Assembly (NCBI GenBank): GCA_026002975.1
Contig: BPGJ01000011.1
Span: 23,813 to 87,812, forward strand
Length of the DNA: 64,000 nucleotides
DNA from: Acidimicrobiia bacterium
GTDB taxonomy: Bacteria; Actinomycetota; Acidimicrobiia; Spongiisociales; ZC4RG35
Reading direction: 5' to 3'
Part shown: positions 44,238 to 47,166 of the stretch, in pieces
Layout: the number at the start of each line of letters is the position of its first letter
How positions within the stretch are numbered: position 1 is the stretch's first letter
The notes under the pieces: model-generated
Database searches by the model: none
Told to the model about the DNA's origin: nothing
The model's input: only the letters and a program-made list of their open reading frames with translations
Program-made: the position numbers and the translations under genes

Positions 44238-45062
44238 ATGGAGAACCTGGTCACCGGCTTGATCGACCCGTGGCGGGCGGAAGCCCTGGCCGCGACCCTC
44301 GACCGGCCGCCGCCCACAGAGGTCCTCCCTCCGCTCTGGCACTGGATCTACCTCTTGGAGGCCTTCCCCACCTCGAACCTGGGACCCGAGGGTCATCCTC
44401 GCCCTCCCGACCTGCCCATACCCGAAGGACGCAGGATGATCGCCGGTGGCGAGGTGGCCTTCCACGGACACGTCCCGTTGGGTGAGGAGGCGACTCGACG
44501 GAGCCGTCTGCTGGGCGTGGAGGAGAAGGAAGGCCGCTCCGGACGCCTGACCTTCGTCCGGCTGGGACATCGCACCGAAGCCCGAGCAACGCTGCTGGTC
44601 GAAGAGGAGCAGCGGATCGTGTACCTGTCTGCGCCTCCCCGGCCCGACCTCCCCCAGGGCTCCCCTCCCGACTGGCCTTGGCGACGAGTCTTCGTGCCCG
44701 ACGAGCTGGTCCTGTTCCGTTTCTCGGCCCTGACCTTCAACTCCCATCGGATCCACTACGACCGCCGCTACACGACCGAGGTGGAGGGCCATCCAGATCT
44801 GGTGGTCCACGGGCCGCTGATCGCCCTGCTGCTGGCCGACCTGGCCCATGAGCGAGTTGGCGAATTGGTCCACTTCTCGTTCCGGGCCACGGCGCCCCTG
44901 TATGTGAACCGACCGATCACCCTCGTCGGGCGACCAACCGGTGGAGACGGAGCCGAGCTCGAGGCCTGGTCCGACGACGGACGCCGGGCCATGGTCGCCC
45001 TGGCGAGGTTCAACCCGCGGCGCGCACCCTCGAAGCGAGGTAGCCGGCCAGGTGCCGGGTGA
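44238..45062 (+). CDS. Hotdog-fold acyl-CoA hydratase (mesaconyl/itaconyl-C4-CoA hydratase-like)
   Basis: MaoC-like FRFSALTFNSHRIHYDRRYTTEVEGHPDLVVHGPLIALLLADL. Confidence 0.78.
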   Translation: MENLVTGLIDPWRAEALAATLDRPPPTEVLPPLWHWIYLLEAFPTSNLGPEGHPRPPDLPIPEGRRMIAGGEVAFHGHVPLGEEATRRSRLLGVEEKEGRSGRLTFVRLGHRTEARATLLVEEEQRIVYLSAPPRPDLPQGSPPDWPWRRVFVPDELVLFRFSALTFNSHRIHYDRRYTTEVEGHPDLVVHGPLIALLLADLAHERVGELVHFSFRATAPLYVNRPITLVGRPTGGDGAELEAWSDDGRRAMVALARFNPRRAPSKRGSRPGAG

Positions 45063-46254
45063 TGTCTCGGGCGTCGTCCTCGGCTCCGAAGATGAAGCTC
45101 GACTTCCTTCGCCTCAAGAAGGTGAGCCCGATCCGATACAGGCCCGGCGACTCGGTCACCACCCCCCCTTCGTGTTTGAGCTGACCCTTCCTGTCGAAAA
45201 CCGGTATGTGGAGCCATGAGTGGTCGGGAACGAAACCGGTCGCCCAGATCACCGTCCGCACCTCACCGACCCGAAGCGACAGCGGAGGATCGGGATCGAC
45301 CCGGGTGGGTGGGAAACGGTGGGGAGGTTCCACCTCGTCCTCCAGGCCCCTCTCGACGATCCACTCGTCGATCTGGTCGAGGAGCCGCCCCATCTTCAGG
45401 TCGGCGAGCTTCACCTTGTTGGGGAGCGAGCCGGAGAACTGCAGCTCCCTTCCCGAGATCCCGGCCAGACGACCCACCAGGCGAACCCCCATGTCGGTGA
45501 GGGCGTTCAGATCGAAGATGTCCCTCTCCCGCGACCCCACCAGCTGGGGTGAGGGAACCCGCCTGGCTCTGACTATGTCGTCCACCTCGTCGTACCGTTC
45601 GTCGGCCCGCCCGGTTTTCTCCATCCACCATTGGATGTCCCGACCCCGGTAGGTCCTGGGCATCCGCACGTGCTCGCCGACCGACAAGGTGACGGGACGT
45701 CCCGATCGGTGGATCTCGGCCGCGATCTGGATCCCGGTGGCAGACGCACCCACCACCAGCACCCCGCCTTCGGGTAGGAGATCCGGCCCTCGGTATTCGA
45801 GGGGGGTCAGCGTCGTGACGTCGGTGGGTAGCGCCGAGGCGATCTCGGGGACCTTGGGGAGGTTGAACCCGCCCGAGGCGATCACCACCGTTTCGGCCCA
45901 CCAAACCCCGTTGTCGGTCTCCACCCGATACCCGTCGCCGCTACGGGTGACCGAGGTGACCGTGGTGTGGGTGACCAGCGGGGGGTCCACGAACCTCGCG
46001 TAGTCCTCGATGAAGCGGACCACCTCGTCGACGGTCATGAACCCATCCGGGTCATCGCCTCGGTAGGCGAAGCCGGGCAGCCGGCTCTGCCAGTTGGGGG
46101 TGAGCAGCCGCAGCGAATCCCACCGCTCGGTCCGCCACGTGTTGGCCACCTCTCCCCGTTCGATCACCACGTGATCGATCGACAGTTCGGTGAGGCAGCG
46201 GCTCACCGCCAGGCCGGCGTGCCCGGCCCCCACCACCACGGTCGTGGTTCTCAC
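45010..46254 (-). CDS. NAD(P)/FAD-dependent flavoprotein monooxygenase (CzcO/FMO-like)
   Basis: TTTVVVGAGHAGLAVSRCLTELSIDHVVIERGEVANTWRTERWDSLRLLTPNW; GVLVVGASATGIQIAAEIHRSG. Confidence 0.85.
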   Translation of the reverse strand: MRTTTVVVGAGHAGLAVSRCLTELSIDHVVIERGEVANTWRTERWDSLRLLTPNWQSRLPGFAYRGDDPDGFMTVDEVVRFIEDYARFVDPPLVTHTTVTSVTRSGDGYRVETDNGVWWAETVVIASGGFNLPKVPEIASALPTDVTTLTPLEYRGPDLLPEGGVLVVGASATGIQIAAEIHRSGRPVTLSVGEHVRMPRTYRGRDIQWWMEKTGRADERYDEVDDIVRARRVPSPQLVGSRERDIFDLNALTDMGVRLVGRLAGISGRELQFSGSLPNKVKLADLKMGRLLDQIDEWIVERGLEDEVEPPHRFPPTRVDPDPPLSLRVGEVRTVIWATGFVPDHSWLHIPVFDRKGQLKHEGGVVTESPGLYRIGLTFLRRRKSSFIFGAEDDARDITRHLAGYLASRVRAAG

Positions 46255-46823
46255 CGGTCGGCGGGTGTGACCTCGACGGTGACCTGGGTCGGGTTGGTGA
46301 TGATGTCGAACACCGCCGACCGCTTCTGGGATTGAGCCACGAGGGCCTCGATCTCCTCAGGGGTCGCGTCGGCGTCGATCTCGTACTTGACCCGGATCCG
46401 GTTGAACCCGTTACGCACGTCGGGATCGGCACCCAGGATGCCGAGGATGTTCATGTCGCCCTCGAGGGTCGCCTTGACCGACCGGAGTTGGATCTCCCGG
46501 TTCTGCGCGACCGCGGCGATGCCGGCGGTGAGGCAGCTGGCGAGACCGACCAGCACTATCTCGACCGGGGTGGCGCCCTGATCCTCGGCGGCGAACACCT
46601 CGGGGTGGTCGGCTTCGAAGGTGAAGGTCCTGCGGTGCCGGTGCTCCTCTCCGAGGCCGAAGTAACTCTCCACCACCGAGCGGCTGTGGGTGCCGTTGAT
46701 CCATTCGTTGGTGGCCCGCCAGGTGAACTGGGCGGCTTCCGGCGCGTCCGACAGGGCGGCGCGGGCTTCGAGCAGGGCCTGCACGTTGACACCGTTGTCG
46801 ACTGGGGTTCCTGTGATCGTCAT
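46251..46823 (-). CDS. OsmC-family protein
   Basis: PVEIVLVGLASCLTAGIAAVAQNREIQLRSVKATLEGDMNILGILG. Confidence 0.85.
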   Translation of the reverse strand: MTITGTPVDNGVNVQALLEARAALSDAPEAAQFTWRATNEWINGTHSRSVVESYFGLGEEHRHRRTFTFEADHPEVFAAEDQGATPVEIVLVGLASCLTAGIAAVAQNREIQLRSVKATLEGDMNILGILGADPDVRNGFNRIRVKYEIDADATPEEIEALVAQSQKRSAVFDIITNPTQVTVEVTPADR

Positions 46824-46871
46824 GTTTCCTCCTGCTGACAGAAGTGACCGGACGCGGACGCCTGCGGTGTT

Positions 46872-46918
46872 GCTCTCGGGTGGTGGCGTCCGCTAGGCGG
46901 AGTCGACCACCCGAGAGC
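46872..46918 (-). promoter_or_regulatory. Leader stem-loop (13-bp perfect stem) overlapping the 3' end of the upstream ORF
   Basis: GCTCTCGGGTGGT ... ACCACCCGAGAGC. Confidence 0.75.
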
Positions 46919-46976
46919 CGGCACAGCACATCCGGCTTGGGGTGGTCGTAGGAAGGATCATCGATGTACGGCTCAT
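46893..46976 (-). CDS. Putative 27-aa leader peptide (uORF) MSRTSMILPTTTPSRMCCAGSRVVDSA
   Basis: ATG with gaggag SD, tandem Cys codons directly before the hairpin arm. Confidence 0.5.
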   Translation of the reverse strand: MSRTSMILPTTTPSRMCCAGSRVVDSA

Positions 46977-47042
46977 AGGGCTCCTCTCGCTTCTCGTCTA
47001 CGCGCTCTTCGAGCGCCGCGAGCGGATCCCCGCCGTCGGCGA

Positions 47043-47123
47043 CTCATCGATCAGGCTTTGGCACCGTGCTTCGGCCGGTTGCCGTGGCTTCACAGGGCCT
47101 GTCCCTCCACCACTCTTGATGAG
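47043..47123 (-). ncRNA. SAM riboswitch aptamer (SAM-I/SAM-IV clan)
   Basis: CTCATCAAGAGTGGTGGAGGGACAGGCCCTGTGAAGCCACGGCAACCGGCCGAAGCACGGTGCCAAAGCCTGATCGATGAG; P1 CTCATC/GATGAG, P2 GTGG/CCAC, P3 ACCG/CGGT, conserved core. Confidence 0.93.
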
Positions 47124-47137
47124 CGCGTTGGCCGGGA

Positions 47138-47166
47138 AGTAGAGCACAACCCGGCCGAGGAGTCAA
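47138..47166 (-). promoter_or_regulatory. Housekeeping-type promoter of the riboswitch transcript
   Basis: TTGACT-N17-TCTACT on the minus strand. Confidence 0.65.

Follow-up and report, generated by a model that had tools for sequence, protein, structure and literature searches.

In the 64 kb window, the whole stretch of DNA analysed here, the minus strand carries an osmC gene and a gene for a monooxygenase-like flavoprotein that overlap by 4 nt and lie behind a SAM riboswitch aptamer and a promoter-like element (Table 1). The OsmC and FMO-like assignments made in the original prediction are upheld by matches to PF02566 and PF13738. Between the aptamer and osmC lie 217 nt, which hold a Shine–Dalgarno (SD) site, a 27-codon ORF encoding MSRTSMILPTTTPSRMCCAGSRVVDSA and a 13-bp hairpin. 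The Cys/Met leader ORF and the covarying hairpins of this interval are absent from the earlier account.

Table 1 Positions of the leader elements and genes of the osmC–flavoprotein operon in the window
Feature	Position	Strand	Evidence
Promoter-like TTGACT-N17-TCTACT	47138..47166	-	Sequence; most OsmC and MetYb leaders have a comparable TTGAC-type box
P0 5' strand ACGCGCTC, overlapping P1 5' strand	47121..47128	-	Complementary to 47007-47000, with compensatory variants in the order
SAM-I-type riboswitch aptamer without P4	47041..47125	-	RF00162, 71.3 bits
P0 3' strand GAGCGCGT, also 3' arm of local hairpin with GCGCTC 47016-47011	47000..47007	-	
SD site AGGAG of leader ORF	46981..46985	-	
Leader ORF MSRTSMILPTTTPSRMCCAGSRVVDSA with stop codon; Met-Cys-Cys codons 46931-46923	46893..46976	-	Cys/Met enrichment in homologous leaders
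Hairpin arm A GCTCTCGGGTGGT	46906..46918	-	13-bp stem with 46884-46872, -35.0 kcal/mol; covariation
Segment C' GCGGACGCC, overlapping stop codon	46885..46893	-	9-bp stem with 46862-46854, z 5.2
Hairpin arm C ACCACCCGAGAGC	46872..46884	-	Pairs with arm A
Segment D GGCGTCCGC	46854..46862	-	Pairs with C'
osmC, single-Cys OsmC family (Cys97); SD AGGAGG 46833-46828	46251..46823	-	PF02566
FAD/NAD(P)-dependent monooxygenase-like flavoprotein (FMO)	45010..46254	-	PF13738 (Pyr_redox_3); beside osmC in 80/80 relatives

The aptamer was recovered by cmscan as a full-length RF00162 match (model positions 1–108, E = 1.1e-14, gathering threshold 44.4 bits), the sole Rfam match at gathering threshold across the 64 kb, which bears out the excellent minus-strand SAM aptamer originally predicted. 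P1 is closed by CTCATC (47123–47118) and GATGAG (47048–47043), exactly where it had been placed. In the window alignment a deletion takes the place of the model's P4, the helix between P3 and P1, an absence that had been remarked, and most SAM riboswitch loci of the order lack P4 too. The earlier suggestion of a SAM-IV or SAM-I/IV riboswitch fails in the covariance-model comparison that had been proposed alongside it: the genome (2.3 Mb, 84.6% complete) contains four RF00162 matches and, at E ≤ 0.001, none to RF00634 (SAM-IV) or RF01725 (SAM-I/IV). Other Rfam families gave only chance-level matches in the leader. We conclude that the aptamer is a P4-less SAM-I-type variant, predicted from its sequence to bind SAM. 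Elsewhere in the order, one genome carries a SAM_alpha (SAM-II, RF00521) match (L301:2187-2266, plus strand; 38.5 bits, gathering threshold 36) roughly 0.7 kb away from the leader-peptide hairpin of a sulfurtransferase, an unusual setting for that riboswitch class.

The two hexamers of the predicted promoter, TTGACT (47166–47161) and TCTACT (47143–47138), are present with their 17-nt spacer; a consensus promoter scan does not list them because the second hexamer has no A at position 2. A loose TTGAC-type pattern recurs upstream of 10/10 OsmC1, 17/26 OsmC2 and 10/12 MetYb leaders, whereas just 2/43 MetH leaders have it. The sequence ACGCGCTC at the 5' boundary of P1 is complementary to GAGCGCGT, ~35 nt behind P1, and this pairing, termed P0, is found in most loci of the order, metH included. 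Its strands vary together (ACGCGCTC/GAGCGCGT, GAAACGCT/AGCGTTTC, CGAAGCGCTC/GAGCGTTTCG and TCGTTGTGTTC/GAGCGCAACGA), and the complementary segments keep an almost fixed position; z exceeds 2 in 59% of 126 loci. By this covariation P0 and P1 are predicted alternatives, P0 competing with P1 and also with the local hairpin GCGCTC/GAGCGC. The small CGCC/GGCG hairpin previously noticed after P1 is part of a switch platform common to most SAM riboswitches of the order, again including those of metH.

Folding with either helix forced gave SD unpaired probabilities (P1/P0) of 0.35/0.61 for OsmC1, 0.29/0.69 for OsmC2, 0.29/0.70 for MetH and 0.22/0.57 for ThrC leaders, the P0 values being those of loci in which an exact P0 (8-bp match) could be forced. 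The SD site of the window itself is computed to be alike in both states (0.25 with P1 vs 0.24 with P0). In several metH, CL6 and thrC genes of the order the platform directly precedes the start codon; in the window, P0 ends 15 nt before the SD site of the leader ORF.

Leader lengths differ by downstream gene, with medians of 334 nt for OsmC1, 244 nt for OsmC2 and 170 nt for MetYb vs 87 nt for MetH and 12 nt for MetX, and the OsmC and MetY leaders carry an SD site and a short ORF. Other peptides of the order include ...SRCMCCPGSRV..., ...APMMCCCMPCSRVV..., ...RCMRACMCAMACLRSRV... and ...SMAMMPSSRV.... Taking the first SD-preceded ORF of 12–60 codons and scoring it positive at two or more Cys/Met, we found such an ORF in 36/53 OsmC/MetY/SsuA leaders vs 4/67 others (MetH, MetX, ThrC and so on; Fisher p = 2.6e-13); the rule returns none in the remaining 17/53, some of which have one by eye. 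The 33 distinct ORFs from OsmC1, OsmC2, MetY and SsuA leaders contain 62 Cys and 45 Met in 998 codons, against 36.2 ± 4.9 and 15.2 ± 3.4 expected from dinucleotide shuffles without in-frame stops. The combined count is 107 vs 51.5 ± 5.6 (highest shuffle, 66), and no other residue is comparably enriched in these 33 ORFs. An SD-preceded short ORF with regulatory codons above chance is what would be looked for in an attenuator, and these comparisons identify a predicted Cys/Met-enriched leader peptide. Many metH leaders also carry very short ORFs with 1–3 Cys between riboswitch and gene (for example MGQQQEACCRCTSGSP and VTKSDPCCIQCPEKR; such leaders include L175 and G010:C53 (L152)), in which Cys is counted 19 times vs 8.3 ± 2.5 expected and Met is not enriched. 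Gene specificity is therefore not absolute. The same tandem of riboswitch and peptide, with leader MTITRLPSATTSACGRCCGCSRVSPGAA, was observed before an SsuA-type sulfonate-binding protein gene (TIGR01728; G030:C52:57776-57872, L128).

Arm A of the hairpin begins 7 nt past the first base of the last Cys codon in the window and 6–8 nt past that of the last Cys/Met codon in most leaders; given the size of the ribosome footprint, a ribosome stalled there would therefore cover part of A. When 24 distinct leaders are aligned, 93.7% of A:C cells are paired, a figure favoured by the choice of sequences for containing such a stem, and 7 of the 12 pairs are changed on both sides, compensatory changes that this choice does not favour. 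No shuffle equals the observed pairing, slid controls pair at most 48%, and RNAalifold predicts the helix unaided. A:C, a conserved predicted stem, is absent from metH leaders. C':D excludes A:C except as a pseudoknot. Support for it is partial and confined to a portion of the leader set, with z > 2 in 16/37 leaders, the window included, and weak signal in 21/37. Compensatory variants include GAACGCC/GGCGTTC, GACGACCGCC/GGCGGTCGTC and GAGACGCCC/GGGCGTCTC, and the stop codon adjoins C' in many leaders. The regulatory codons of the candidate attenuator thus stand beside mutually exclusive hairpins, of which A:C covaries and C':D exceeds z = 2 in those 16. In the window leader a terminator scan called no intrinsic terminator, and no U-tract was found behind either hairpin, so the element is not classed as a classical intrinsic-terminator attenuator.

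Across the order, riboswitch and peptide also occur apart. The hairpin pattern was detected in 38/138 genomes (a reversed control pattern gave zero matches), and the comparison documents a modular reuse of these predicted elements. The riboswitch stands without peptide before metX, metH and thrC. Hairpin and peptide stand without a SAM riboswitch before OsmC1-FMO in the sister genus g2 (MLQQSASMSMRDYMGCLGSRV...), before OsmC2 in several f8 genomes (...FVMCMCMISSRV...), and before a sulfurtransferase operon of this same genome (peptide ...VVSCCCGCCVRSRV...). At the sulfurtransferase leader G000:C2:147777-147843 (L297, L116), a Cys-only peptide, SCCCGCCVRSRV, is followed by the same hairpin, and no SAM riboswitch lies in front. 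This operon also holds a gene that, as read from its translation, is sulfite-reductase-like, and it is divergent from a metH gene under SAM riboswitch control.

The survey of downstream genes in related genomes, which had been put forward with the original prediction, places OsmC firmly among the regulated genes. In the window's family, 61 SAM riboswitches were found in 34 genomes, 14 of them before an OsmC-like gene. The 120 gene-assigned riboswitches of the order precede MetH (43), OsmC2 (26), MetY (16), OsmC1 (10), MetX (8), CL7 (6), ThrC (5), CL6 (5) and SsuA (1), so that 36/120 are followed by an OsmC gene; in many loci MetY (O-acetylhomoserine sulfhydrylase, TIGR01326) comes next after OsmC2. 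OsmC thus belongs regularly to the SAM regulon of the order. This recurrence, the OsmC2–MetY arrangement and an osmC precedent in Pelagibacter (PMC5069961) support the sulfur-linked role that had been proposed for these redox proteins. CL6 and CL7 (e.g. L145, L123), found behind SAM riboswitches in several genomes, are protein families of ~350–390 aa with no NCBIfam match.

Beyond the order, most of the SAM riboswitches sampled stand before thrC, metX or metH without such a peptide, and no tandem was seen, a result of a sample made up mostly of better-scoring loci. Within the class, ThrC follows some 35 loci that lack the tandem, and 2/50 loci from other classes have an ORF with at least three Cys plus Met, neither like the tandem peptides. 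RF00162 riboswitches of the phylum outside the order stand mostly before threonine synthase (thrC), and SAM therefore seems to control the methionine/threonine branch point there.

Cys97 of OsmC is invariant in 95/95 aligned proteins, as is Ser169, and no second conserved Cys was found among the 95; a two-cysteine OsmC/Ohr peroxidase is accordingly not supported, despite membership of PF02566. The closest solved relative of OsmC is a hypothetical protein (2opl) and its nearest named relatives come from Acidimicrobiia MAGs. The closest solved chains to the flavoprotein are the flavin monooxygenases 4usq, 4a9w and 4c5o. The relatives in which the flavoprotein adjoins osmC range from actinobacteria to proteobacteria. 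An Rfam scan of 17 actinobacterial-type OsmC-FMO loci found a riboswitch only at L053, whose contig is probably identical to G031:C172 from the window's family, and a core-motif search among the 80 relatives found none besides. The riboswitch was thus discarded as a general trait of OsmC-FMO pairs: the pair is widespread, the riboswitch is nearly absent in relatives, and SAM control is therefore local. Nor did a consistent Cys/Met leader ORF appear before OsmC-FMO outside the window's family. From co-regulation, our guess is that OsmC and the flavoprotein release or handle sulfur from organic compounds.

Taken together, the OsmC–flavoprotein operon probably senses two sulfur signals in series. 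We consider it likely that two sensors follow one another, the P1/P0 riboswitch gating the leader peptide and stalling at Cys/Met codons resetting the hairpin. The SAM-bound aptamer would form P1, and the SAM-free leader the long-range P0, in which GAGCGCGT would pair with the 5' end of the mRNA together with the 5' strand of P1. P1 would tend to hide, and P0 to expose, the SD site of the next ORF, which in metH leaders is usually the gene itself or a short ORF and in OsmC leaders would be the leader peptide. From this we infer that SAM binding restrains initiation of the leader peptide. A ribosome awaiting Cys- or Met-tRNA would cover part of A and allow C' to pair with D; with a ribosome that reaches the stop codon beside C', or with no ribosome, A:C would form as the off form, acting perhaps through a U-tract-free terminator, a Rho-linked route or mRNA stability. 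OsmC and the flavoprotein would then be produced under low SAM combined with a shortage of Cys or Met, within sulfur acquisition. The opposite polarity, with C':D off and A:C on, is disfavoured, since a shortage of Cys or Met would be expected to raise the expression of sulfur genes.

That the output of the riboswitch is translation of an amino-acid-sensing leader peptide, with SAM gating ribosome entry into an attenuator that reads Cys/Met tRNA charging, is a serious possibility that we put forward tentatively. The two modules may instead be independent, the riboswitch acting on the operon by its own platform, through termination or mRNA stability, and the peptide acting on osmC separately, with no gating. 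This is on the whole unlikely, although each module is also found alone and the window's SD site shows no computed difference between states; the 15-nt distance from P0 to that SD site counts against it, and the position of the platform before metH, CL6 and thrC starts suggests translational action on the next start.

SAM-I riboswitches usually work via a terminator, and on that ground the hairpin might simply be the terminator of an ordinary SAM-I riboswitch, with the ORF incidental. Such a reading is very improbable, given the absence of a U-tract, metH leaders without the hairpin, the Cys/Met enrichment at fixed spacing, and the same hairpin and Cys/Met ORF before sulfurtransferase and OsmC genes that have no SAM riboswitch. 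We likewise give hardly any credence to a functional Cys-rich microprotein that binds metal or thiols in place of a stalling sensor: motifs such as CMCC, CCC and MCMCM would suit one, but outside Cys/Met and the SRV that the hairpin arm encodes the peptides vary widely, some have Met and no Cys (SMAMMPSSRV), and the codons hold their spacing to the hairpin.

The gated arrangement that we prefer would combine a metabolite-sensing RNA and a ribosome-based amino-acid sensor in one leader. If true, it amounts to a two-input logic gate of exchangeable modules, through which each sulfur gene of the order receives its own mix of SAM and Cys/Met inputs: metX and most metH would respond only to SAM, sulfite/sulfurtransferase genes only to Cys, and OsmC and MetY to both. 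How sulfur genes are regulated could then be tested one gene at a time. The arrangement would also make a strong guilt-by-association case that the poorly understood single-Cys OsmC proteins and their flavoprotein partner are enzymes of sulfur acquisition.

SAM-I riboswitches, Cys/Met leader peptides and riboswitch–uORF pairs are each known; a Cys/Met leader peptide placed behind a SAM riboswitch was not found described in the open literature, outside which most subscription journals lie. Like the SAM-I (S-box) riboswitches of RF00162, the window aptamer matches the covariance model at full length, keeps the conserved SAM core and stands in cis before sulfur genes; it differs in lacking P4, in an alternative pairing made by the P1 5' strand and the mRNA 5' end, and in the leader peptide that follows. 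The metL leader peptide of Streptomyces lividans, MSTTSDRTPATEATTTPGARCMCRRMCAF, which precedes metNIQ, is likewise Cys/Met-rich, lies before a sulfur gene set and has no clear U-tract terminator, but it is on a leaderless transcript with no riboswitch reported in front (PMC8079986). Cysteine leader peptides before sulfur genes in Actinobacteria (PMC1262725) and polycysteine uORFs in mycobacteria (Canestrari 2020, as cited in PMC13236596) likewise have short ORFs with successive Cys codons; those of mycobacteria are leaderless, no conserved terminator hairpin was found there, and there is no riboswitch. In Mycobacterium tuberculosis, a B12 riboswitch with a uORF before ppe2 provides a riboswitch-controlled translated leader required by the downstream gene, although the ligand is different and the leader works by termination–reinitiation without an amino-acid codon sensor (PMC11260477). 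OsmC under SAM control is not itself new: in Ca. Pelagibacter ubique, SAM-V precedes bhmT-osmC-ordL, and osmC mRNA rises 50-fold in sulfur-limited exponential phase (PMC5069961). Both systems place osmC and a FAD oxidoreductase in a SAM riboswitch region, but the Pelagibacter riboswitch is of another class and its tandem partner is a SAM-II riboswitch in place of a leader peptide (PMC5069961), and OrdL comes from another oxidoreductase family than the flavoprotein of the window.
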